Assembly: GCA_030602785.1 (NCBI GenBank)
Contig: JAUVZB010000026.1
Span: forward strand, 1-33,973
DNA: 33,973 nucleotides
DNA from: Dehalococcoidia bacterium
Lineage (GTDB): Bacteria > Chloroflexota > Dehalococcoidia > GIF9 > AB-539-J10
Direction of reading: 5' to 3'
Part shown: positions 22,018-32,860 of the stretch, one piece after another
Layout: each line of letters begins with the position of its first letter
Position numbering within the stretch: position 1 is the first letter of the stretch
Position numbers and translations under genes: made by a program
The notes under the pieces: model-generated
Told to the model about the DNA's origin: nothing
Databases searched by the model: none
Seen by the model: the letters and a program-made list of their open reading frames with translations, nothing else

Positions 22018-23454
22018 TTACTCGCTTCTGATGCCCGCTATGTCCTGGGCCAGCTTCTTCTTCTTCTCGATGTCAGCGTTGCGCAGGACCGTCATGCGAT
22101 GCGTCTCCGGAGAGCCGGCGCCGTGAATGTTGGAGACGATATCCCTGCTTTCGAAGGCCAGCTTCTCGATGAAGCGGAATATGCGCATTCGGTCCTCAAC
22201 AGCAACTCCGTCCGCGCCCATCAGGTACTTCGACAATAGCGGCCCGATTTCCGGGTTTGCGAAGTCTTTGTCCGAAGGAAGGTCGGTTGTTGTTCCGCCG
22301 GCAATCTCAATCATCATTCTGATGACCTCGTGCAGGTCCTTGCCCTCGAAGAGCTTCGAGACATTTGAGAGCACCGGGTCAACCGTCTGGATGCCCGAGG
22401 GGGTAGGTTTGGAATCCACCGAGGCGGCTATGGAGCAGCCGTAGATGGCCTCCGTTATCTTGAGCATCTCCGCCAGCTTGTTGTTCACGTGCGACACGTT
22501 GGCCAGACCGTTGTATTCGGCTGCAGTTGCCGCAGCACCGATGATGACGTCGCCCACGCCGCATTTGCAGCCACCGTGGGAGTGCCTGTGGAAGTTGCCG
22601 AAGTTGCGCACCATCGGGCCGGCGTACTCGTACTCGCCATAGAGAAAGACCCTCTCCCACGGTACGAAGACGTCGTTGAATATGACTATGTTGGCAAACT
22701 TGCTGTATTCGGCATTGCCGAGGTCGCAGCCGTCGAGCGCCCGCGCCTCGAGCGTGCCACGGCCGTAGACATGGATGACTCCTTCCGCATCAACGGGAAC
22801 GGCGAAGGAGACGGCGTAGTCTTTGTCCGCTTCCCGCATCTCGCGGGCGGGGACGACGATGCCCCAGTGGGCGCAGAGCGAGCCGGTCTGGTGAATCTTG
22901 GCGCCCCTCACCGTGATGCCCTCGCTGTCCTTGCTGACTACGTGCAGGTAGAGGTCCGGGTCTTTCTGTTGGGAGGGACGGAGTGAACGGTCGCCCTTCA
23001 CGTCCGTAACTCCACTGAAGACAGTCAGGTCATCTGCCTGCAGGATGTCCACGAAGTTGAGCAGCCGGCTCCAGTACTCCGTACCGTACTTCTGGTCGCA
23101 TTCATAGGCCTCGATACCCACGGAGTTCATGGCATCCATGCCGGTGCAGCGCATGAAGCAAGTGCCGATTCTCTGTGTGAGGAACCTGAGCATTCGGACT
23201 TTGGCCAGCAGGTCTTCCCGGCTCTGATAGAACTTCACGAAACGGCTCACCTTTTCGCCGGACTCGAGCTGGGTCACAAGCAAATCCGCGCCCTCAGCGT
23301 CGTGCTCGAATTCATACGTCCTGGCAACGCCGGCCAGCATATGTGTGAGCAGAGGATGTTCGTACGGATTGGCTACCTTCTCTCCCAGGATGTAGGTAGT
23401 CGGGTGCAGCTTTTCCAGCGAACTGTAGTATTGCTCTCTTGTTCTCAGGGCCAT
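22018..23454 (-). CDS. 4-hydroxybutyryl-CoA dehydratase-like / HpaB-family flavoprotein
   Basis: A 478-residue protein of the 4-hydroxyphenylacetate 3-hydroxylase (HpaB)/4-hydroxybutyryl-CoA dehydratase (AbfD) family. AbfD uses FAD and a [4Fe-4S] cluster for a radical dehydration. All four cluster ligands can be seen: Cys99 and Cys103 (C-F-M-R-C), and His289 with Cys296 (HRHSHGGC), spaced as in Clostridium AbfD. Thr190 in IHQTGSL fits the substrate/flavin site, and the GAGSPE segment lies near 445. Two AbfD active-site positions differ: the residue between the paired cysteines is Met, and the tyrosine four residues after the ligand histidine is His293. So it is probably an Fe-S dehydratase/isomerase on another acyl-CoA, not a hydroxylase. 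It stands alone, with no acyl-CoA gene adjacent. Confidence 0.82.
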   Translation of the reverse strand: MALRTREQYYSSLEKLHPTTYILGEKVANPYEHPLLTHMLAGVARTYEFEHDAEGADLLVTQLESGEKVSRFVKFYQSREDLLAKVRMLRFLTQRIGTCFMRCTGMDAMNSVGIEAYECDQKYGTEYWSRLLNFVDILQADDLTVFSGVTDVKGDRSLRPSQQKDPDLYLHVVSKDSEGITVRGAKIHQTGSLCAHWGIVVPAREMREADKDYAVSFAVPVDAEGVIHVYGRGTLEARALDGCDLGNAEYSKFANIVIFNDVFVPWERVFLYGEYEYAGPMVRNFGNFHRHSHGGCKCGVGDVIIGAAATAAEYNGLANVSHVNNKLAEMLKITEAIYGCSIAASVDSKPTPSGIQTVDPVLSNVSKLFEGKDLHEVIRMMIEIAGGTTTDLPSDKDFANPEIGPLLSKYLMGADGVAVEDRMRIFRFIEKLAFESRDIVSNIHGAGSPETHRMTVLRNADIEKKKKLAQDIAGIRSE

Positions 23455-23635
23455 CTAGTACTCCATTTCTTGCGGAAGGCCAGCGTGTGTCTTTCGTGCT
23501 GGCCTTGCTGCCGGCAATCTTATTGCAGCAGCAAAGGGATATCAACCTGACCATCACCTGCGGCCTGACGCCACGCGAGTTTGCAGGAGCCATTACCGCC
23601 ACGGTAATTGGGGTGGGGTGGTGGTGTCCGGCGGA

Positions 23636-23656
23636 GGGGCACGTTGCACGTGCCCG
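23636..23656 (+). repeat. Hairpin repeat class B (copy 1)
   Basis: Stem GGGCACGT / ACGTGCCC with loop TGC, perfect 8-bp pairing; the GTA of the common frame is lost. Confidence 0.7.
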
Positions 23657-23681
23657 CTGGAGACGGGTGGTGATTGGCAAT

Positions 23682-23705
23682 GTAGGGGTACGTCGCACGT
23701 GCCCG
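23682..23705 (+). repeat. Hairpin repeat class B (copy 2)
   Basis: 24-base unit GTAGGGG...GCCCG with stem GGGTACGT / ACGTGCCC (one T-G pair) and loop CGC. It ends 25 bases before a class A copy. Confidence 0.75.
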
Positions 23706-23730
23706 GTGGGGGGGGGTGATGATTCGAAAT

Positions 23731-23757
23731 GTAGGGGCAGGGCTCCGTCCCTGCCCG
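23731..23757 (+). repeat. Hairpin repeat class A (copy 1)
   Basis: 27-base unit with frame GTAGGGGC...GCCCG; 8-bp stem GGGCAGGG / CCCTGCCC and loop CTCCGT. Identical to the copies at 23969, 29282 and 31242. Confidence 0.85.
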
Positions 23758-23777
23758 TGAGGAAGGGTGAGCTATCT

Positions 23778-23803
23778 GTAGGGGCCATGGCATGCCTGGC
23801 CCG
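23778..23803 (+). repeat. Hairpin repeat class D (copy 1)
   Basis: 26-base unit GTAGGGGC...GCCCG; stem GGGCCA / TGGCCC flanks a palindromic GGCATGCC core. Follows class A by 20 bases. Confidence 0.75.
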
Positions 23804-23857
23804 TTCCCTTGTCGCCACACAACGCCGGCAAGGCCAAGACAGCCCTGAATGACACAC

Positions 23858-23875
23858 TGCCCGACGGGCGGACCT
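23858..23875 (-). repeat. Hairpin repeat class C (remnant)
   Basis: GCCCGACGGGCGGACC matches one arm and flank of the complete class C copies at 29213 and 31072; the other arm is lost. Confidence 0.5.
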
Positions 23876-23923
23876 CCCTGGCCATCCGTTGTAGTCGGGG
23901 TGGCGTGGTGTTATCTGAAGCAG

Positions 23924-23943
23924 AGGCACGTTGGGCGTGCCCG
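23924..23943 (+). repeat. Hairpin repeat class B (copy 3, diverged)
   Basis: GGCACG pairs with CGTGCC around TTGGG; the outer frame has decayed. It is again 25 bases before a class A copy. Confidence 0.6.
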
Positions 23944-23968
23944 GTGGGGGGGGGTGATGATTCGAAAT

Positions 23969-23995
23969 GTAGGGGCAGGGCTCCGTCCCTGCCCG
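23969..23995 (+). repeat. Hairpin repeat class A (copy 2)
   Basis: Exact copy of the 27-base unit at 23731 (stem GGGCAGGG / CCCTGCCC, loop CTCCGT). Confidence 0.85.
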
Positions 23996-24100
23996 GAGGG
24001 ACCGTCTATCTGCAGGGTCGGCGGCATGCCTCGCGCGGCATCGCGTTCCAAGAGATAGCGTCCAAAGGCAGCCCGCAAGAGCACTTGGCCCGCGTTGTCC

Positions 24101-25435
24101 CTACATCATTTTCCCGGGGAGCCACAGGATTATCTGTGGGAAGAGTATGCACAGAACCAGGCCCAGGACTATAAGACAGACAAATGGAATGACTCCCCGG
24201 ACGATGTGGCCGGTATTCACGCCCCACTCTGGTTTGCAGATTCCCCTCAAATAGAACAGAGCGTAGGCGAAAGGAGGCGTAAGGAAGGACATCTGTAGAT
24301 TGACCACGATCATCATGGCGAACCAGAGTGAATCGAAGCCGAGCACTTCACCGATGGGCGTGACGATGGGAACCATGATGAACACTATTCCAATCCAGTC
24401 AATGAACATGCCCAGAAGGAATACGATGACCATTACCGCCATGAAGCTGCCCCAGCGCCCCATTGGAATGCCGACAATGGCGTTCTTGACCACATCTCCA
24501 CATCCAAGGCCCAAGAACGTACTGGTGAACATGGCGGCGCAGATGGCGATTATCATGACCATGCTGGTAATTCGCAGGGAATGGTAGGTAACTTCCTTGA
24601 AAGCTTGGAAACTGAAACGGCGGTAGGCGATCGCCAGGAGTACGGCAGCGATTGCTCCGATGGCGGCAGCCTCGGTTGGAGGTGCGATCCCGAAAAATAT
24701 CGTCCCGAGCACCGCGAGAATGAGAAAGAGGGGTGGTACCAGGGAGGTAACGAGCGCCGTGACCTTGTGGGCGAAGGGCACATTCCGTTCCTCGGGGGGC
24801 AATGCTGGAGCCAGATTTGGCCTGAGGAAACTGGCTATGGCGATGTAGGATATGTACAGGCCTGCCAGCATGAAACCGGGGATGAAAGCAGCCATGAACA
24901 ATTTGCCTACCCCGATACTGGCGGTGGGACCGTATATGACCAGCATCACACTCGGAGGAATCAGGATTCCCAGGGTGCCACCGGCACAAACCGAGCCGCA
25001 CGCCAGTTCCTTGTTGTAGCCGTGGTTGAGCATGGATGGAAGGGCTATGAGTCCTAACATGATGACCGACGCTCCAATAATCCCCACGCAAGCGGCCAAC
25101 AGCGCGCCGATCAGCACGGTGGCTATTGCCAGACCACCTCTCAGCCCACCTGTCCACAGGTAAATGGCATCAAAGAGCTTCTCGGAGATGCCCGATTTCT
25201 CCAGCATCAGCCCCATGAATATGAACAGGGGCGCGGCCAGGAGAACGTAGTTGGTCATTATCCCGAAAACACGCCCGTAGAAGACGGCGAAGGTGCGCTC
25301 GGGCGAAAAGAACAGCAGGCTGACTATCATGGCTATCCCGCCAAGTGCGTAGGCCATTGGAAAACCCAGCAAGATAGCAATCAGGAGCAAACCAAACATC
25401 AGCAGGGTTATGACCTCTGGACTCATGTCAATCAT
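24101..25435 (-). CDS. dctM: TRAP transporter large permease DctM (system 3)
   Basis: The 444-residue large subunit of the third TRAP system, with about a dozen hydrophobic segments. Signatures include LGILIPPSVMLVIYGPTAS near 160, ILAVLGTIFFGIAPPTEAAAIGA near 245 and FLTPPFAYALFYLRGI near 385. The N-terminus (MIDMSPEVITLLMF) is reached from the ATG at 25433-25435, which overlaps the dctQ stop by eight bases (ATGATTGA); the longer upstream reading would cut into dctQ. The reading ends at 24101 against repeat block 1. It is closer in style to mannitol/chloroaromatic-type large DctM proteins than the copies in systems 1 and 2; the cargo is not known. Confidence 0.95.
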   Translation of the reverse strand: MIDMSPEVITLLMFGLLLIAILLGFPMAYALGGIAMIVSLLFFSPERTFAVFYGRVFGIMTNYVLLAAPLFIFMGLMLEKSGISEKLFDAIYLWTGGLRGGLAIATVLIGALLAACVGIIGASVIMLGLIALPSMLNHGYNKELACGSVCAGGTLGILIPPSVMLVIYGPTASIGVGKLFMAAFIPGFMLAGLYISYIAIASFLRPNLAPALPPEERNVPFAHKVTALVTSLVPPLFLILAVLGTIFFGIAPPTEAAAIGAIAAVLLAIAYRRFSFQAFKEVTYHSLRITSMVMIIAICAAMFTSTFLGLGCGDVVKNAIVGIPMGRWGSFMAVMVIVFLLGMFIDWIGIVFIMVPIVTPIGEVLGFDSLWFAMMIVVNLQMSFLTPPFAYALFYLRGICKPEWGVNTGHIVRGVIPFVCLIVLGLVLCILFPQIILWLPGKMM

Positions 25436-25946
25436 TGTGGGCTCCCTTGGCAAGCAGTTTCAGGGAGCGAGCGACATTGACGATCCCCTGGAGCAGGAGC
25501 AGGAACAGGGCAAGCGTTATGACCGTCCTCAATGGATAAATGGGCGGATAGAAGATGGTTGTCGAGGCGAGCTCGCCAATCTTCCATGAATGGATCGTGA
25601 TTTTCAGGGAAGTCAGGAATATGAAGAAAACCAGGGGGAAGAACAAGACGAAGTTGAGCACTACATCGATAATCAGCCTCGTTCTCTGTCGGAAACGGGC
25701 AGAGATGATGTCAACTCTCACATTCTCATCTTTCTGGAGGACCCAGGCCAGTCCCAACAGGTACATGGCGCCCCCGAGCATGTAGCTGACGTCGAAAGAC
25801 CAGATAGTCGGCGCGTTCAGCACATAACGCATGAAGACGTTGTATGCGATGCACGCGATAAGTATGACCAGTAGCCAGCTCGCGAATTTGCCAGTCCAGG
25901 TGCTGGCCCTCTCAATCCAGGTGAACACGGGATTCAGTTTGTTCAT
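25428..25946 (-). CDS. dctQ: TRAP transporter small permease DctQ (system 3)
   Basis: A 172-residue four-helix subunit. Conserved pieces are IAYNVFMRYVLNAPTIWSFDVSYM after helix 1 (in parts at residues 33-55) and VLQKDENVRVDIIS between helices 2 and 3. The ATG at 25944-25946 is used because GGAG lies six bases upstream and it begins the normal DctQ N-terminus MNKLNPVFTWIER. The eight-base overlap with dctM indicates coupled translation. Confidence 0.92.
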   Translation of the reverse strand: MNKLNPVFTWIERASTWTGKFASWLLVILIACIAYNVFMRYVLNAPTIWSFDVSYMLGGAMYLLGLAWVLQKDENVRVDIISARFRQRTRLIIDVVLNFVLFFPLVFFIFLTSLKITIHSWKIGELASTTIFYPPIYPLRTVITLALFLLLLQGIVNVARSLKLLAKGAHND

Positions 25947-25974
25947 GGCGAACTCCATCCGTTGCACACACAGA

Positions 25975-25993
25975 CGCCCTCGTCGCGAGGGCG
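25975..25993 (-). promoter_or_regulatory. Intercistronic stem-loop between dctP and dctQ (system 3)
   Basis: CGCCCTCG (25975-25982) pairs perfectly with CGAGGGCG (25986-25993) around TCG in the 90-base spacer between dctP and dctQ. There is no U-run. Position matches the hairpins in TRAP systems 1 and 2 although the sequences are unrelated. Confidence 0.6.
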
Positions 25994-26036
25994 CCTGCGC
26001 GCGCAACCGTCGACTCTACGGTCCCAGTTCAGGCTG

Positions 26037-27191
26037 TTATTCGTACAGCCATCTGTACTCGGGTTGCACTTTGTATTCCACGATCCGGTACGCGTTAAGG
26101 AACTCCTGCTGAGCCTCGTATACCTCCTTGTAGAACGGATCAGCGGCGGAATTCTCTTCGTGTACTACCTGAATGAGTTCGTATATCGCTCTCTGTACAT
26201 CCTCGGGAAGGTATGCGATCTCGATGCCGGCCTCCTCGAACAGGACCATCGCTTTCGCATCTTCCATGTGAATCCACGAATGGTCAATCATGCTCATGCG
26301 CGAGGCGGCCTCAATTATCGGTTTCAGGTCGTCAGGCACTTCGTTCCAGGTGTCCTCTCGGACCATCAACCGGCACATGGCGTTGGTTGACTGCATTCCC
26401 GGTTCGTGCATCACGGCACCAAGGTCCTGGAACCCTGCAGCGTAGTCCATGGATGGCGTGCAGTACTCAAAACCATCTATGACCCCACGCTCAAAGGCCT
26501 GGTAAATCTCGCCGCCCGGCAGGTTGACTACGGAAGCACCGAGCTTCTGTGCGACATCGCCGTAGAGTCCCATGCAGCGGTATTTCATACCATCGAAGTC
26601 TGAGAGGCTCGTGATGGGTTCTTTGAACCAGCCGAACGACTCGGCTCCTGCCAGGTGGAGCATGCCGCCAACCACCATGACGTCAGTGTCGGACTGCTGC
26701 ATGCACGCATTGATCAGCTCTCGTTCTCCGCCGATTTCAAGCCAGGCGTAGAGCTCAGTGGGGTTGGGGCCACATGGGAGAGCTCCGAAGAGACCGCCCA
26801 CCTTACCGAAGCGCCCCAGGTTGAAATTGAAACATGTGCCTGCCCAGTCGATGGCGCCTGACTCCAGAGCCTCGAATTCCTTGGTCATCGGGCACAGCTC
26901 GCCACCAGCGTGGAGGGTTACATCGATCCGACCGGCGGACATCTCTTCCACCCTGCCGACGAACATCTTGATCTGTTCGAGATAGGGGCCGCCGGGGGGC
27001 CAAGCCTGGAAGTCCATTTCGTACGTCTCTGCCTCCGGCGCCGCCGGAGCTGCCTGTTCGTCCTCCTCTTCCTCAGGAGCCTGCGCCTCCTCTTCAGCTT
27101 CGGGGGCTGCTGCCTCAGGAGCGCAGCCGCTAAGAACCAGAGCTGCAATAGCCACTAGTGACAGGGTCAAGACAACTAACCTACTCTTCAT
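26037..27191 (-). CDS. dctP: TRAP transporter substrate-binding lipoprotein DctP (system 3)
   Basis: A 384-residue solute receptor. The signal peptide MKSRLVVLTLSLVAIAALVLSGC ends in a classic LSGC lipobox. Residues about 24-56 form a linker made almost only of Ala, Pro and Glu, which would hold the binding domain away from the membrane. The mature domain shows GRIDVTLHAGGELCP near 88, the MKYRCMG segment with the substrate-binding arginine, and NLPGGEIYQAFERGVIDGFEY near 220, as in the 2-oxo-acid/lactate-type DctP group. GGAGG precedes the ATG. It is first in a dctP-dctQ-dctM operon. Unusual cysteines in the mature part (about six) hint at an anaerobic or low-oxygen envelope; this is only suggestive. 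Confidence 0.93.
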   Translation of the reverse strand: MKSRLVVLTLSLVAIAALVLSGCAPEAAAPEAEEEAQAPEEEEDEQAAPAAPEAETYEMDFQAWPPGGPYLEQIKMFVGRVEEMSAGRIDVTLHAGGELCPMTKEFEALESGAIDWAGTCFNFNLGRFGKVGGLFGALPCGPNPTELYAWLEIGGERELINACMQQSDTDVMVVGGMLHLAGAESFGWFKEPITSLSDFDGMKYRCMGLYGDVAQKLGASVVNLPGGEIYQAFERGVIDGFEYCTPSMDYAAGFQDLGAVMHEPGMQSTNAMCRLMVREDTWNEVPDDLKPIIEAASRMSMIDHSWIHMEDAKAMVLFEEAGIEIAYLPEDVQRAIYELIQVVHEENSAADPFYKEVYEAQQEFLNAYRIVEYKVQPEYRWLYE

Positions 27192-27756
27192 CTAATCCTC
27201 CTTTTCGCGGATTCCGGCTGCTCAGTCTTTCCCGAGTGTCTCTACCCCATACAACAACCCTCCTGCGATGCACAGTCATGGCGCCGATAGCAGCGGCAGA
27301 CTACACGGGACGGAATGTCTGACTGGGAGAAAGAAAGCTGGATGCCACTTCCCCCTGGCTGCTTCCCATTCAATCGCTCCTGCTTCGTTCTCCCCACTCG
27401 GGGACCACCTGGGTATTGTTGAAGGAAATGCCGATGGCTTTGTCCGCTTTTCATAAGCGGGTTGCTCTGGTTGGTCACTCCGGGGAGTCGTGCACGATGG
27501 TAGCACGACATATTCTGGAAAACAATACCCTGTACTCGTCAATAGTGACGGTCTACGATTCTGTCCTCCCGTCGTGCGGACTGCCGGAAGGACGGAATGG
27601 GATGATCTGCGTACGAGGGGCATGGCATGCCTGGCGGGGCATCGCGTTGAAGGGGATAGCGCCGAAAGGCACACCGCGGGAGCACTCAGACTCGCACTGC
27701 AGTGACTATGGTGTCCCTGGAATCGCCCGGTCTGCTACGAGCATCTCGTGCTACTG
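27192..27756. other. Intergenic region with diverged palindromic repeat
   Basis: About 565 bases between the start of dctP3 and the end of the lipoprotein gene. The part near 27200-27400 should hold the promoter of TRAP operon 3. Around 27617-27690 lies a diverged class D repeat plus downstream motif also seen at 24023-24090. Reading frames here have no ribosome sites or recognisable products. Confidence 0.5.
27617..27690 (+). repeat. Diverged class D repeat with downstream GCATCGCGTT motif
   Basis: GGGGCATGGCATGCCTGGC, then GGCATCGCGTT, GGGATAGCG and AAAGGCACACCGC follow in order. The same order with substitutions (GGCATGCCT, GGCATCGCGTT, AGATAGCG, AAAGGCAGCCCGC) occurs at 24023-24074, so both are copies of one longer element. 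Confidence 0.6.
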
Positions 27757-28869
27757 CTAGTCACAGTTGTACTCGACGGTCATCGTTGGGAGAATCCCGC
27801 GTTCCCAGTGCAGAAGGTCCCTGGTGTCGTCCCAATCCGAACGCGGGTCCGAGAACTGCAGGCGGAACTGGAAGTACCTCTCGCCAAGCTCGTCCTGGAG
27901 TGCGCCGCGGAAGCCAATGGAGTGCGTTGGCATGTCCAGGTCGTCGAAGTCGCACCATTCCCCGATCGGGTCAGTGAGGTCCTTCGTCCAGTACTGGTCA
28001 CGAATCGAGGCGTACTCATGTACATACGCGCGCAGACATCCGAGTCCCGGGAACGGGAAATCGTACGGGATGTCGTAGCCGGACAGGTCGAGCAAGACCC
28101 GCGTGATTTCCGCATCCTCCGGGATGTCTGAGATGTCAAAGGTGAGAAACCCCTGGATGTCCCTGTTGGCGTCATCGTCACCCACGTAGATGCCTATCGT
28201 CCTTTCGACTCCGCTGCTACGGACATAGCCGCTCATCTCGCCGTCTGCCGTCAGAGTGACGACGTTCCCGGACTGCTGCCACGTGCCGGTTACCGTGACG
28301 GTCACGTTGGCCGTCACGGTCGAACCGCCACCTGCTGCCGTCAGCATGTAGGTGGTCGTCACATCCGGTGTAACCACCACCGAGCCAGTCGCCGGCACCG
28401 TGCCGATGTCCTGGTCGATGGTGACCGACGTCGCGTTGGAGACGTTCCATAACAGCGTCACGCTCGCACCCGACTCGATGGTCGAGGGCAGTACTTCGAA
28501 GGCTATGACCGTGGCCGACGCACCACCTGCGGGAAGCACCTTCACGGAGCCGTATACCTCAGCAGACCACGTGTCGTTGTTGTCCTGCACCATGAAGTCG
28601 ATGGCGTGTTCGCCCACCGAGAGCGAATCAGTCTCGAATGTGGCCAACCGGCTCAGCTCACCATCCAGGTCCGAGCTCCAGTAATAGCCCGCCACGTCGC
28701 CATCTGCATCCGTACCCTGTCCGATGAACGCGACCGCCTCGCCCTCGGTCGGCTCTGCCGGCAAGATGGAGCTTATGGACGCTTCGGGAGGCTGGTTCGA
28801 TGGAGGCGAGTCGGAGGAGCACCCGGCCAGAAGCAGCAAAGCGCAAACGAGAAGCAAAGCCCTATTCAT
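27757..28869 (-). CDS. Secreted lipoprotein with PKD/Ig-like repeats and a DNRLRE-like C-terminal domain
   Basis: A 370-residue predicted surface lipoprotein. The signal MNRALLLVCALLLLAGC has an LAGC lipobox. Residues about 24-105 look PKD-like (EAVAFIGQGTDADGDVAGYY and HAIDFMVQDNNDTWS); about 110-195 form a bacterial Ig-like domain (VTLLWNVSNATSVTID, TTTYMLTAAGG); the rest resembles DNRLRE/CBM-type jelly-roll domains (IQGFLTFDISDIPEDAEITR). Such proteins bind polysaccharide or other surfaces; no catalytic motif is visible. I chose the ATG at 28867-28869, where the signal peptide starts behind GAGAGGTG. The gene stands alone, with repeats on both sides, and its expression or history may be independent of neighbours. 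Confidence 0.72.
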   Translation of the reverse strand: MNRALLLVCALLLLAGCSSDSPPSNQPPEASISSILPAEPTEGEAVAFIGQGTDADGDVAGYYWSSDLDGELSRLATFETDSLSVGEHAIDFMVQDNNDTWSAEVYGSVKVLPAGGASATVIAFEVLPSTIESGASVTLLWNVSNATSVTIDQDIGTVPATGSVVVTPDVTTTYMLTAAGGGSTVTANVTVTVTGTWQQSGNVVTLTADGEMSGYVRSSGVERTIGIYVGDDDANRDIQGFLTFDISDIPEDAEITRVLLDLSGYDIPYDFPFPGLGCLRAYVHEYASIRDQYWTKDLTDPIGEWCDFDDLDMPTHSIGFRGALQDELGERYFQFRLQFSDPRSDWDDTRDLLHWERGILPTMTVEYNCD

Positions 28870-28980
28870 CTTCACACCTCTCAGCCATAGCCGGGTCCTC
28901 AATCTACTAGCAGCATACCGTTCTCTCCTCCAGATTACAACGTGCAGGGGAGTTTAGTTGCCCGCAGGGTCGGGCCTATG

Positions 28981-29007
28981 TGCAGGGGGGATGGCATGCC
29001 TCACCCG
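28981..29007 (+). repeat. Hairpin repeat class D (copy 2, diverged)
   Basis: The GATGGCATGCCTCACCCG core keeps the GGCATGCC palindrome; the outer stem is partly broken. It heads the first unit of the 144-base tandem duplication. Confidence 0.6.
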
Positions 29008-29084
29008 TCCCCGTGTTGTGACACAACGTTGCCAAGCCTGCACAGTCGCGAGCGACCTGGTGAGGGTGGGTGGTGGTCCATCCC

Positions 29085-29108
29085 GGGGCAGGGTCCCATC
29101 CCTGCCCG
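29085..29108 (+). repeat. Hairpin repeat class A (copy 3)
   Basis: Stem GGGCAGGG / CCCTGCCC with loop TCCCAT; the leading GTA is lost. Confidence 0.8.
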
Positions 29109-29128
29109 CAGGGTCGGGCCTATGTGCA

Positions 29129-29151
29129 GGGGCCATGGCATGCCTGGCCCG
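29129..29151 (+). repeat. Hairpin repeat class D (copy 3)
   Basis: Stem GGGCCA / TGGCCC around the GGCATGCC core, same as at 23778, with GCA in place of GTA upstream. Confidence 0.75.
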
Positions 29152-29212
29152 TCCCCTTGTCGCCACGCAACGTTGCTAACGCTGGCGCAACCGCGAACGG
29201 CACACCGCCCGA

Positions 29213-29239
29213 CGGGCGGACACAGAGGTCCGCCCCTAC
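29213..29239 (-). repeat. Hairpin repeat class C (copy 1)
   Basis: On the minus strand a 27-base unit with frame GTAGGGGC...GCCCG, 8-bp stem GGGCGGAC / GTCCGCCC and a 6-base loop. Same length as class A but opposite orientation. Confidence 0.85.
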
Positions 29240-29281
29240 AGCAAAAAATCACGCAAGTGGAGGTGGTGGAAGGTTCGAAAT

Positions 29282-29308
29282 GTAGGGGCAGGGCTCCGTC
29301 CCTGCCCG
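29282..29308 (+). repeat. Hairpin repeat class A (copy 4)
   Basis: Exact copy of the unit at 23731 (stem GGGCAGGG / CCCTGCCC, loop CTCCGT). Confidence 0.85.
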
Positions 29309-29328
29309 CAGGGATGGGTGGCCTATCC

Positions 29329-29354
29329 GCAGGAGCCATGGCATACCTGGCCCG
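29329..29354 (+). repeat. Hairpin repeat class D (copy 4)
   Basis: AGGAGCCATGGCATACCTGG keeps the class D frame with point changes; starts 21 bases after the preceding class A copy, as in the other blocks. Confidence 0.65.
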
Positions 29355-29427
29355 TCGCCCTGTCGTCACACAACGCCGCAAAGGCCGGCGCAGAGGCTGA
29401 AGCCCGTTCGGACCTGACTTCAGATGT

Positions 29428-29853
29428 CTATCCCAGGGCTTCTATTCCAAGGCGGGCATACTCTTCGTCCACCTCGGCCTGTGGAAACCCGCTGACACCG
29501 ACTGCGCCTATCACCGAACGGGCCGATGCTTGCTTGTCCAGGACGCATACGCCTCCACCTATCGATGTCACATCCGGATCCGTCCAGTCAGACATCTGTG
29601 CTTTCAGCTGTTTCGTCGCATCGGCGATGGCGCTGGTATCGCGCCTCAACTTGGCGGCGCTGTACGCCTTCACCTGGGCCATTCGGAGAGTATTCCAGCT
29701 GGCGCCATCCATCCTGATGAACTTGATGAGGTCACCCCGGTAGTCCGCGACGGCGATGGAAAGGGGTGGTCCCTTTTCGACTTTCGAATGGGCGATAATA
29801 GCATCCACGATTCTGTCGGCGTCATCCAGCCCGAGCATTCTTTTCTCGTACAT
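29428..29853 (-). CDS. GlcG/HbpS-family protein
   Basis: A 141-residue protein of the GlcG/HbpS (DUF336) family. The family fold appears in PPLSIAVADYRGDLIKFIRMDG near 30, AQVKAYSAAKLRRDTSA near 60, and the glycine-rich SIGGGVCVLD plus VIGAVGVSGFP near 100-122. Members bind haem or act in glycolate, diol or corrinoid-related pathways; the exact role is often unknown. AAGGAGG lies nine bases before the ATG at 29851-29853; an in-frame reading that runs much further upstream is not supported. The HAD phosphatase gene lies about 210 bases upstream on the same strand, and together they could be a glycolate-related pair (inference). Confidence 0.85.
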   Translation of the reverse strand: MYEKRMLGLDDADRIVDAIIAHSKVEKGPPLSIAVADYRGDLIKFIRMDGASWNTLRMAQVKAYSAAKLRRDTSAIADATKQLKAQMSDWTDPDVTSIGGGVCVLDKQASARSVIGAVGVSGFPQAEVDEEYARLGIEALG

Positions 29854-30061
29854 CGACAAAGGCCTCCTTCTGATGCTCTTTGACTGCCCTTCCCGGGCAT
29901 ACTTGCAGGATGGTAACACGCCATGATTGAGGCAGTCTGCCGGATGATGTGGCCATTCACCGTGCGGAAGGCAATCTTGCAGCATGGCGTCGGCTCGTCT
30001 GACGGAGGACGCCAGAGGTGACGCTGAAGAAGCAGAGCAGGGGGGAAGGTGGGGTGGTCGC

Positions 30062-30718
30062 TCAGTCGCGAAACAGAGGAATGATATCGGCCGGTTTGTC
30101 GACCAGGAGCCTGGCACCGTTCGACAGCAGTTCCTCCGCTGGGCGAAAGCCCCACAGTACTCCGACCGCGTATAGACCGGCGGCGGTCGCGGTCTGCATG
30201 TCGACACCGGAGTCGCCGATGTAGAGGCATTCCCCGGGCTTGATGCCCATTCCTTCCAGGATGTGCAGAGCGCCTGCAGGGTCCGGCTTCCTCGGGGTAG
30301 AGGGCGACTCTCCGAGGACGAACTCGAAGGACCAATTCGGCAGCAGTCCGGATACCATCGCTTCAGTGTATTCATGTGGTTTGTTCGACAGTATGGCCAT
30401 GCGTACGCCGCGTGCCGTGAGAGTATCGAGCAGCTCCGGGATGCCCTCATACGGGTGCGAGTGGTCCATGTAGCGCTTCTCGTACTCCTCGCCGATGTGA
30501 GCGATTAGAGCGTCCAGGATGTCTTCGCCGCGGCGGTCCTCCGGGAGTGCTTGCAGTGCGAGGGCTCGTCTGCCATCGCCGACGAAGTACCTGTAGGCGT
30601 CTACTTCGTGCTGAGGGAGTCCCTGTCGTGCCAATGCGGCGTTGACTGCATCAGCCAGGTCTTCCAGTGTGTTCAGTAGTGTCCCGTCGAGGTCGGATAG
30701 CAGAGCGCGGTATTTCAC
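30062..30718 (-). CDS. HAD-superfamily phosphatase, phosphoglycolate phosphatase-like
   Basis: A 218-residue HAD hydrolase of the Gph type, expected to dephosphorylate 2-phosphoglycolate or a similar small phosphate ester in the cytosol. Motif I is SDLDGTLLNT with nucleophile Asp9 and Asp11; motif II serine lies in ILSNKPHEYTE near 115; motif III lysine in TPRKPDPAG near 146; motif IV is GDSGVDMQTATAAG near 170. The alpha-helical cap lies between motifs I and II. The start is taken as GTG at 30716-30718. There is no ribosome site upstream, but TATCAT sits at 30725-30730, six bases before the start on the minus strand, which would give a leaderless message. Confidence 0.88.
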   Translation of the reverse strand: MKYRALLSDLDGTLLNTLEDLADAVNAALARQGLPQHEVDAYRYFVGDGRRALALQALPEDRRGEDILDALIAHIGEEYEKRYMDHSHPYEGIPELLDTLTARGVRMAILSNKPHEYTEAMVSGLLPNWSFEFVLGESPSTPRKPDPAGALHILEGMGIKPGECLYIGDSGVDMQTATAAGLYAVGVLWGFRPAEELLSNGARLLVDKPADIIPLFRD

Positions 30719-30789
30719 TCGCAAATGATAGCAGCAGGGCCGCCGAACAGGCGAATCCCTCCTGCTGGGGATGGACGGGTGGCCTGTCT

Positions 30790-30813
30790 GTATGGCCACG
30801 TTGCACGTGCCCG
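30790..30813 (+). repeat. Hairpin repeat class B (copy 4)
   Basis: 24-base unit; stem GGCCACGT / ACGTGCCC with loop TGC, outer pairs partly changed. Confidence 0.65.
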
Positions 30814-30888
30814 GTGGAGATGTGTGGTGATACGCAATGTAGGTGGCGTTCGCGTACGACTGGGCGGGGGGGGGTGGTGGTTCGTAAC

Positions 30889-30915
30889 GTAGGGGCAGGG
30901 TCCCATCCCCGCCCG
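30889..30915 (+). repeat. Hairpin repeat class A (copy 5)
   Basis: 27-base unit with loop TCCCAT; the right arm has one change (CCCCGCCC). Confidence 0.8.
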
Positions 30916-30945
30916 TCGTAATTGGGGCGGGACGTGATTAGTGAC

Positions 30946-30972
30946 GTAGGGGCAGGGTTCCGTCCCTGCCCG
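30946..30972 (+). repeat. Hairpin repeat class A (copy 6)
   Basis: 27-base unit with loop TTCCGT and a perfect stem; 57 bases after the previous copy. Confidence 0.85.
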
Positions 30973-31014
30973 CAGTGACGGGTGGGATGACCGAGATTAG
31001 CAACCCTATTGCCG

Positions 31015-31032
31015 AAAGTTCCGTCCCTGCCC
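31015..31032 (+). repeat. Hairpin repeat class A (half copy)
   Basis: TTCCGTCCCTGCCCGCAG repeats the loop, right arm and flank of the copy at 30946; the left arm is missing. Confidence 0.65.
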
Positions 31033-31071
31033 GCAGTGACGGGTGGCGTATCTTGCCGACAATCCACCCGA

Positions 31072-31098
31072 CGGGCGGACACAGAGGTCCGCCCCTAC
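31072..31098 (-). repeat. Hairpin repeat class C (copy 2)
   Basis: Exact copy of the 27-base unit at 29213 (stem GGGCGGAC / GTCCGCCC), minus orientation. Confidence 0.85.
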
Positions 31099-31192
31099 CA
31101 GGAACTGGGCAATTCTCCCGTGCCAATCCTCCACCCTACCGACGGGCGACGCACGCATTGCGCGATGGTGGTGTGGTGGGGTGGTTCCGGAC

Positions 31193-31216
31193 GTAGGGGC
31201 GCGTCGCACGTGCCCG
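31193..31216 (+). repeat. Hairpin repeat class B (copy 5)
   Basis: 24-base unit; stem GGGCGCGT / ACGTGCCC (one G-T pair), loop CGC; 25 bases before a class A copy, the same spacing as in block 1. Confidence 0.75.
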
Positions 31217-31241
31217 GTGGGGATGGGTGGCGGTTCGGAAT

Positions 31242-31268
31242 GTAGGGGCAGGGCTCCGTCCCTGCCCG
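31242..31268 (+). repeat. Hairpin repeat class A (copy 7)
   Basis: Exact copy of the unit at 23731. Confidence 0.85.
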
Positions 31269-31298
31269 TCGTAATTGGGGCGGGACGTGATTCGGGGC

Positions 31299-31325
31299 GT
31301 AGGGGCAGGGCCCCATCCCTGCCCG
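31299..31325 (+). repeat. Hairpin repeat class A (copy 8)
   Basis: 27-base unit with a perfect stem and loop CCCCAT; 57 bases after the previous copy. Confidence 0.85.
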
Positions 31326-31345
31326 GGGTTGTGGGGGGCCTATCC

Positions 31346-31371
31346 GTAGGAGCGATGGCATGCCTCGCCCG
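31346..31371 (+). repeat. Hairpin repeat class D (copy 5)
   Basis: 26-base unit with the GGCATGCC core; compared with 23778 a C-G pair of the stem is changed to G-C on both arms (GCGA / TCGC), a compensatory change. Confidence 0.75.
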
Positions 31372-31541
31372 TCCCCTTGTCGTCACACAGCGTCGCCAGG
31401 GCCAATACACCACTGAACGACGCGCTAGCCGAACCGCTGGTTCGTGTATCGCCCGTCCCCTTCTCTCACCACACAACAGCCGACTGCCCCCTTCGCCTTG
31501 ACTCCTGACTCCTTCACGCCCCGGTTTCCTTCGGCTTCGAC

Positions 31542-31550
31542 TGTTACAAT
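31542..31550 (+). promoter_or_regulatory. Extended -10 element of the MFS gene
   Basis: TGTTACAAT is a good extended -10 (TGn plus TACAAT), with the MFS ATG 30 bases downstream. No clear -35 box is seen, as is common with extended -10 promoters. Confidence 0.4.
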
Positions 31551-31579
31551 GGCCGCTGGTCTCTCTGCAACGAGCTTTC

Positions 31580-32860
31580 ATGAACAGCCAGACAGCGAAT
31601 CAGCGGAAGGGTCGCTTCTTCTACGGCTACCACCTGGTAGGTGTCGCCTTCCTGCTCATGGTCCTGTTCAGCGGCTGCGGCGTGTTCGCTTTCAGCCTCT
31701 TCGTCAAGCCCCTCGAGGCGTCGCTGGGCTGGGGGCGGGGCCAGGTGATGGCCGGCTTCACGCTCTTCTACCTGATGGTGGGATTCGCCTCGCCCGTGGT
31801 TGGCCGCTTCGTGGACCGCCACGGGGCGCGACCGGTGATTGCGATTGGGGCGCTGATGATGAGCCTCGGATTCGTCATCGTGAGCCGGATGAGCGACCTG
31901 TACCTCTTCTATCTTGGCTACGTGATAGTCGGAATCGGCGCCTCCGCCATGGGATTGGTGCCGTGTAGCGCGCTCATGTCGAACTGGTTCAAGCGCAAGC
32001 GGGGCACGGCGCTGGGCCTGATGGGGGCCGGCATCGGTGCGGGTGGCGTTGTGATGGCTCCATTCATCGGCTACATGCTGGCGCGCTTCGACTGGCGGGC
32101 GGCCTATGTCTCTATGGCCATCCTGATACTGGCCGTGGCTATCCCGCTAGCGCTTGGCGTAGTACGCACGCGGCCTTCTGACATGGGACTCTATCCGGAC
32201 GGGGATAGGGCACCGGCCGGGGACCCGGGAGACGCGACACTCGGGGGTGGTGAGAAAGAAGGGTTCACGTTGCAGCAGGCGCTGAGGACGCGGGCTTTCT
32301 GGCTGATGGCTGTGGCGTTCGCCTTCTCCAACTTCGCCAACATGGGCACGATTCAGAATTCGGCGCCCTTCCTCGCGGACATCGGCTATCCGACTGCCAC
32401 TGGTGCATCGGCGCTCGGAGCGATTGCATTCGGCAGCGGCACCGGGAAACTCTTCTTTGGCTGGCTGTGCGATAAGATGCGGGCCAGTCATGTCTGTGCA
32501 ATCGGCATCGCGCTGCAGTTATCGGGTGTACTCCTGCTGCTGACCGTGCGTGCTGACTCGCCGCTGGCGGTCATCTGGATATACGCGCTGCTGCTGGGGT
32601 TGGGAGTGGGGGCGTGGCTTCCCAGTCTATCGATGCTGGGGAGCACCAACTTCGGTCTGCTGTTCTACGGGGCCGTGTTCGGCGCGCTCAACATGGCACA
32701 GAGCATGGGAACCTCCACCGGGCCTCTGTTCTCGGGCCTGGTGCATGATGTCACGGGCTCGTACGTGGGCGCCTTCACCACCGCCGCGGTCCTGTTGGCC
32801 ATCGCCATCCCGACCGTTCTGCTGGTGAAGAAGCCCGTCCTCCCGACACGCGACTCTTGA
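31580..32860 (+). CDS. MFS transporter, OFA/monocarboxylate-like
   Basis: A 426-residue major facilitator with twelve predicted helices in two halves of six and a hydrophilic loop around residues 198-230. It resembles the oxalate:formate antiporter/monocarboxylate group: GVFAFSLFVKPLEASLGWGRGQV in parts near 33-55, the VGRFVDRHGARPVI segment (MFS motif A) near 74, and NWFKRKRGTALGLMGAGIGAGG near 132 in two pieces. The likely cargo is an organic anion exchanged or moved with protons. No strong ribosome site precedes the ATG. The gene stands alone between repeat block 3 and the toxin-antitoxin pair. Confidence 0.9.
   Translation: MNSQTANQRKGRFFYGYHLVGVAFLLMVLFSGCGVFAFSLFVKPLEASLGWGRGQVMAGFTLFYLMVGFASPVVGRFVDRHGARPVIAIGALMMSLGFVIVSRMSDLYLFYLGYVIVGIGASAMGLVPCSALMSNWFKRKRGTALGLMGAGIGAGGVVMAPFIGYMLARFDWRAAYVSMAILILAVAIPLALGVVRTRPSDMGLYPDGDRAPAGDPGDATLGGGEKEGFTLQQALRTRAFWLMAVAFAFSNFANMGTIQNSAPFLADIGYPTATGASALGAIAFGSGTGKLFFGWLCDKMRASHVCAIGIALQLSGVLLLLTVRADSPLAVIWIYALLLGLGVGAWLPSLSMLGSTNFGLLFYGAVFGALNMAQSMGTSTGPLFSGLVHDVTGSYVGAFTTAAVLLAIAIPTVLLVKKPVLPTRDS

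Follow-up and report, generated by a model that had tools for sequence, protein, structure and literature searches.

Contig JAUVZB010000026.1 of a Dehalococcoidia bacterium (GenBank assembly GCA_030602785.1), a stretch of 33,973 nt that we call the window, holds 24 framed hairpins or hairpin relics between positions 23633 and 31371, most of them in three intergenic blocks, with one relic at 27613. We put a probability of about 0.8 on these being GTAG-tagged repetitive extragenic palindromic (REP) elements of several families, many of them decayed, each the substrate of a REP-associated Y1/HUH tyrosine transposase (RAYT) of subclass 2.4, or RAYT group 4. The repeats are tiny remnants of mobile elements that small transposases, with genes elsewhere in the genome, have probably copied, and comparison over 20 phyla suggests that the base and the tip of the hairpin act as an address label for the transposase, with a mid-stem that is free to change. 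The elements, the covariation of their stems, the RAYT genes, the congruence between hairpin tip and RAYT, and the rule that governs partner hairpins are all directly seen. The best reading is still one that an earlier note on this DNA had offered, namely REP/RAYT elements whose folded structure is recognized by a protein specific to the frame.

Each element has the same architecture: a GTAG tag, a foot of GGGC/GCCC, an inner stem, and an apex, by which we mean the loop with its closing pairs. The tag is unpaired and lies directly 5′ of a hairpin of 20–40 nt, the arrangement that defines GTAG REPs. Window copies were located by reading the sequence, and genome-wide counts were taken over the 2.57-Mb genome, where the exact frame GTAGGGGC...GCCCG has 258 matches and the reversed pattern 21. 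The four classes that had been described as sharing this frame in three blocks are all present at their places, and are exemplified by the copies at 23731 (class A, GTAGGGGC-AGGG-CTCCGT-CCCT-GCCCG), 31193 (class B, GTAGGGGC-GCGT-CGC-ACGT-GCCCG), 29213 on the minus strand (class C, GTAGGGGC-GGAC-CTCTGT-GTCC-GCCCG) and 23778 (class D, GTAGGGGC-CAtGG-CATG-CC-TGGCCCG). Within class D the reported pair swap is likewise found, as C..G at 23778 and G..C at 31346.

The inner stems vary by class yet pair, as the earlier note had it. A catalogue of 190 genome copies, for which pairing was no condition of entry, shows 671 Watson–Crick pairs among 700 inner pairs (96%) and 15 different inner stems that pair perfectly; when each distinct sequence is counted once, 174 of 196 pairs form, against 74.6 ± 7.4 when the 3′ arms are shuffled. 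The excess of compensatory changes that the earlier note had named as its test is present in an alignment of 24 distinct own-genome sequences, with a covariation score of 0.310 compared with 0.123 ± 0.022 in shuffles, and sliding the register of the same alignment gives a far lower score in each case. Sorted by apex, the catalogue consists of CTCYGT (91), GCATGC (40), TCCCAT (27), TTCG (15) and ACGT (9) types. Class C and most of class A carry CTCYGT, the class A copies with CTCCGT or TTCCGT tips being those at 23731, 23969, 29282, 30946 and 31242; three A-like copies (29082, 30889 and 31299) carry TCCCAT or CCCCAT; and class D carries GCATGC. The four classes thus all exist but are not four equal families, since class A comprises two tip types and classes A and C mostly share one; members of A and C can even be head-to-head partners (30946/31072).

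Three of these apex types match transposases of the genome. A RAYT-like Y1 transposase, which the earlier note had suggested looking for in the genome, is present in three copies on other contigs (C81, C47 and C56): the Y1_Tnp search gave two genes, and a profile built from those two gave the third. The same Y1_Tnp and profile searches found no Y1 transposase within the window, in agreement with the earlier note. The tips that these genes carry or are flanked by are CTCNGT (C47), TCCCAT (C81) and GCATGC (C56), all three of which are among the window tips, so that three of the main window tip types each have a RAYT gene of their own in the genome. All three genes are flanked by REPs: those on C81 and C47 lie within dense hairpin arrays and contain in-frame hairpins in the part that runs from the HUH motif to the catalytic tyrosine, and the gene on C56 has GAGGCATGCCTC hairpins on its flanks. 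The C81 and C47 proteins pass the Pfam Y1_Tnp cut-off, match the NCBIfam REP-associated tyrosine transposase NF047646 with E values of 1e-17 and 2e-14, respectively, and have the motifs NHIH (C81) or NHLH (C47), WQ and YIANNP, the L of the second being one step outside the published NH[IFV]H class. An AlphaFold model of a relative (L033, not one of the genome's own RAYTs) has the Y1 transposase fold (predicted local distance difference test, pLDDT, 87.7), and its REP-coded insert is a low-confidence loop (pLDDT about 56). Foldseek matches this model to ISDra2, to the REP-bound E. coli RAYT (4er8) and to IS608 with E values from 4e-7 to 1e-6; against the PDB, a single-sequence search gave no match, and the profile and fold searches led to 4er8. 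Within the phylum, a tally compiled by hand from two tables and then tested places a RAYT in 58 of 75 hairpin-rich genomes and in 119 of 325 others (odds ratio 5.9). As an observation on its setting, the C81 RAYT with its REP array (L031) lies between phage-structural-like open reading frames, the upstream one major-capsid-like by eye only, and a prophage may be where this island inserted.

The association extends far beyond this genome. We compared 80 RAYT loci from about 20 phyla, obtained in one scan of named genomes; metagenome assemblies may miss genes. The GTAG-GGGC..GCCC frame is found in nearly all of the loci. The RAYT gene itself contains a head-to-head hairpin pair in 42 of them, a double-ended palindrome in 15, a single hairpin in 12 and none in 11, and 71 of 84 RAYTs have embedded REPs, frequencies that are biased because the query that yielded the sample was itself insert-bearing and the ranking was by similarity. 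The reading frame is open across the whole match in 71 of the 80 loci, and the hairpin is read in more than one frame, which indicates that the DNA, and not one peptide, is conserved. One RAYT frame, from Nitrospirae (L081), is still open with seven hairpins in it, of which four are identical copies repeated in tandem at a spacing of 51 nt. The 30 best insert-free profile matches of the phylum belong for the most part to different RAYT groups, which have other feet and hardly any embedded hairpins.

On a tree of 84 RAYTs from which the insert columns were removed (a first tree had kept them), the apex type requires 11 changes, where the minimum is 9 and shuffled labels require 50.6 ± 2.0. Host phylum requires 45 changes compared with 50.4 ± 1.8 in shuffles, and the inner stem 24 compared with 25.3 ± 1.2, which is no signal beyond that of apex type. 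In 30 of 30 whole genomes, chosen by RAYT apex and with embedded copies counted, the apex of the genome's own RAYT is the commonest of the three tested.

These results bear on two other accounts of the hairpins. That they are mainly RNA elements (terminators or 3′ mRNA stabilisers), for which REP-like mobility is only history, we regard as improbable. Their intergenic position, their occurrence on both strands and their capacity to fold as RNA would fit such a role, and action at the RNA level is thought likely for REPs of other species (PMC3733652), but the GTAG tag is conserved and unpaired, no T-run follows the stem, many copies share an intergenic gap, the tips track a DNA transposase tree over 20 phyla, and copies lie in frame within RAYT genes. 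Rfam covariance models run over 23300–31700 gave one irrelevant weak match and none that is credible, which also counts against the RNA account. Recognition at the level of DNA is favored because the hairpins are associated with a single-stranded DNA transposase and occur in frame inside its gene.

The other account makes the hairpins passive passengers of miniature inverted-repeat transposable elements (MITEs) or of other insertion sequence (IS) elements, and not RAYT substrates at all, which seems to us very unlikely. It draws on a repeated unit of ~340 bp with imperfect terminal inverted repeats (CTAGGAGCCTGTCSGAGAA .. TTATTCCGACCTGCTTCTAG), which looks like a MITE and carries a head-to-head GGAC/AGGC REP pair, about 10 copies of that pair being found inside the unit; however, the majority of catalogued copies are outside it, and hairpins lie in or adjoin the RAYT gene at RAYT loci of 20 phyla. 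By inspection, the terminal inverted repeats and target duplication that a DDE-type MITE would have were not seen around the window hairpins. The ~340-bp unit itself is found at many contig ends (G000 C13, C21, C35, C36, C40, C42, C59, C60, C78 and C23; L162–L172). A different relation to IS elements is seen where a foreign sequence, ATACCGTCTTGCATGTCAAGC.., is joined to a REP at the GTAG tag in two genomes (L192, on G006 C101 in the reverse strand after CGTAG, and L032:1–125, on G000 C47); it is apparently the end of an IS110-like element, and its joining at GTAG in both suggests an IS that targets these REPs.

With RAYT action preferred over both, the mechanism that we envisage is as follows. 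The RAYT would bind a single strand in which the element has folded, and would recognize three features of it: the GTAG tag, which is unpaired, the foot GGGC/GCCC, which is constant, and an apex specific to the RAYT clade. It would cut near the tag. The inner stem would need only to pair, and could drift by compensatory change. The working unit would be a head-to-head pair, which offers one readable hairpin on each strand, and whose members, by sharing foot and apex and usually having unlike inner stems, would pair much less arm to arm.

The partner rule behind this last step is most clearly seen in the embedded pairs, in which foot and apex are equal in both members and the inner stem is unlike: agreement at positions 5–7 is 2/41 against 7.9 ± 2.1 for random partners within apex type, and one of 2000 runs was as low. 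Among neighboring hairpins in the 80 loci, inner stems are identical in 2 of 56 head-to-head, 2 of 14 tail-to-tail and 22 of 30 tandem arrangements. Pairs belonging to the 340-bp unit were removed before stems were compared, and the own genome without that unit follows the same trend (1/9 compared with 11/14). Head-to-head pairs with a gap of 69–70 nt had been considered as many independent dimers, an idea we rejected on finding that they are copies within that one repeated unit. When copies were read through genome-wide, two Geobacter genomes, G495 (from Geobacter argillaceus) and G486, were seen to obey the unlike-partner rule almost without exception. Folding with DNA parameters puts the advantage of arm-to-arm pairing at −3.4 kcal/mol for unlike stems, compared with −16.1 for identical ones.

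Unlike partners may be kept by recognition or simply by stability. On a stability account, to which we give slightly less than an even chance, identical inverted pairs form long cruciforms that are deleted, collapsed to a double-ended hairpin or lost in assembly, and recognition does not drive the rule. Unlike dimers have been proposed to be shielded from SbcCD-type removal (Di Nocera 2013, PMC3733652) and “double foot” REPs to derive by deletion within inverted dimers (Quentin 2018, PMC6006769); double-ended palindromes of this sort are seen in 15 of 80 RAYT genes, and with identical stems the snapback advantage would grow from −3.4 to −16.1 kcal/mol. Against it, partners differ in the inner stem and have the same foot and apex, a pattern that constraint on foot and apex by recognition would also give; and identical pairs, which persist in one genome (G499) and are the norm in the REPINs of P. 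fluorescens (PMC3116915), are evidently not lost in every case.

What the embedded pairs do for the gene is a further matter. In several genomes with CCCYGT tips the embedded copies are the sole exact copies, and hence the pair is not a genomic repeat: in G471, G472, G476, G477, G479 and G480 (the genomes of L033, L034, L038, L043, L054 and L063) no exact CCCYGT-tip REP occurs apart from the two that the RAYT gene contains, and the stems of these two, AGGC and AACC, are identical across phyla. Because the two embedded hairpins are the sole exact copies in most of the CCCYGT-tip genomes examined and yet keep foot, apex, pairing and frame across phyla, we tentatively raise the idea, which we would not ourselves bet on, that the pair embedded in a subclass 2.4 RAYT gene is a cis-acting part of that gene and not a landed copy. 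Together with the apex code and the unlike-partner rule, the gene would then carry its own matched substrate or switch with it upon transfer.

Several points weigh against RAYT action as set out here. RAYT binding, cutting and mobility, as well as the reason for unlike partners, are what we infer from sequence. No RAYT for the ACGT (class B) or TTCG tips was found in the genome; either these tip types are orphans, or their RAYT gene is absent from an assembly that is 95% complete. The NF047646 scores of the C81 and C47 RAYTs (64.4 and 53.6 bits) are under the curated cut-off of 80, which is a library threshold (NCBIfam REP_Tyr_transpos) and not a biological trait; the insert splits the profile match and may be the cause. 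The RAYT tree is poorly resolved, and after it had been seen four apex labels were corrected and two dropped, the uncorrected labels requiring 16 changes with a minimum of 11. As for the partner rule, G499 (the genome of L088) is an exception with many GAAC/GAAC head-to-head pairs ~10 nt apart, and arm-to-arm pairing is still favored in 38 of 53 natural pairs, so that it is reduced and not abolished.

In the window, where placement was read, the copies lie between genes, and intact and decayed ones are mixed; the class B tag is mostly decayed (GGAG, GCAG, GTAT) and the class D tag is often GCAG. From its upstream end, on the plus strand unless noted, the series opens with a class B REP whose tag has decayed to GGAG (23633–23656), a class B REP with intact GTAG tag (23682–23705), a class A REP with CTCYGT tip (23731–23757), a class D REP with GCATGC tip and a bulged T (23778–23803), a decayed class B REP (23920–23943), a class A REP with CTCYGT tip (23969–23995) and a decayed class D REP (24012–24037). 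The class D relic outside the three blocks (27613–27638) is followed by three class D REPs with GCAG tag (28982–29007, 29126–29151 and 29329–29354), among which lie an A-like REP with TCCCAT tip and decayed tag (29082–29108), a class C REP with CTCYGT tip on the minus strand (29213–29239) and a class A REP with CTCYGT tip (29282–29308). Further on come a decayed class B REP (30790–30813) and a relic with TTCG tip (30839–30865), intact versions of which are retained in the nearest sister genome, G006, the latter as GTAGGGGTCGTTCGCGAACGACCC; an A-like REP with TCCCAT tip (30889–30915); a class A REP with the CTCYGT-like tip TTCCGT (30946–30972), head-to-head with the class C copy below; a truncated class A REP (31012–31033); that class C REP, with CTCYGT tip, on the minus strand (31072–31098); a class B REP (31193–31216); a class A REP with CTCYGT tip (31242–31268); an A-like REP with CCCCAT tip (31299–31325); and the class D REP that has G-C in place of C-G (31346–31371). 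A clean empty site was sought against G006 and none was found, the contigs of that genome breaking in or beside the blocks. The genes around the blocks are at 24101–27191 (−), 22018–23454 (−), 29428–29856 (−), 30062–30799 (−) and 31580–32860 (+), and the products of the block neighbors are TRAP transporter components DctM/DctQ/DctP, a 4-hydroxyphenylacetate 3-hydroxylase-like protein, an HbpS-like protein, an HAD hydrolase and an MFS transporter.

Taken by themselves, the window elements are a rich but otherwise ordinary set of new REPs. The comparison across phyla adds to this a division of labor within the hairpin, in which tag and foot are universal, the apex is inherited with the transposase across phyla, and the inner stem is free but unlike that of the partner. 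It makes two questions testable, namely what a RAYT recognizes and why REP dimers often have unlike stems, and it suggests loop sequence as a route for assigning orphan REP families to a transposase. The congruence of apex and RAYT over phyla, the partner rule in subclass 2.4 and the single-copy embedded pairs are unstated in the literature that we compared, which had subscription papers and supplements outside its scope, and we make no claim of priority.

Among known systems, the closest is the GTAG REP super-family (Di Nocera, De Gregorio, Rocco 2013, PMC3733652), which shares with our elements the unpaired GTAG at one end, a stem of 6–13 bp with compensatory variants, high copy number, head-to-head dimers, several families per genome and family-matched RAYTs. 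Compensatory stem variants under a constant GTAG tag, and unlike dimers for which those authors saw no obvious explanation, are described there, and the foot of G-C pairs in PMC6006769, so that the shared frame with swapped stems, which the earlier note had singled out as unusual, was already documented. Unlike in that super-family, the GGGC/GCCC foot is here constant over classes and phyla, and within one genome it is common to several apex types.

The RAYTs correspond to TnpA-REP subclass 2.4, or RAYT group 4. Those parts of Quentin et al. 2018 (PMC6006769) that we compared describe the HUH motif NHxH, WQ and YIxNNP, a foot of three G-C pairs, double-foot REPs, and REPs in tnpA between HuH and Y that leave the frame intact, all of which recur here; gene-embedded REPs are thus already described. 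The apex that follows the RAYT tree, the unlike stems of embedded partners and the embedded pairs as sole copies go beyond those parts of its text. With the REPINs of P. fluorescens (Bertels and Rainey 2011, PMC3116915) our elements share the inverted REP doublet as a unit linked to a RAYT, but the doublets there typically consist of identical REPs, whereas here partners nearly always differ in inner stem. With E. coli REP/TnpA-REP (PDB 4er8; PMC8266576) they share the transposase fold, the GTAG tag and, presumably, a single-stranded DNA hairpin as substrate; the E. coli REPs have a recognized bulge, and the stems here are mostly perfect. In vitro, other RAYTs depend on tag and loop and are less sensitive to swaps of the stem (Corneloup et al. 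2021, PMC8266576), and the apex here seems to have the role in specificity that the loop has for group 3 enzymes in vitro.

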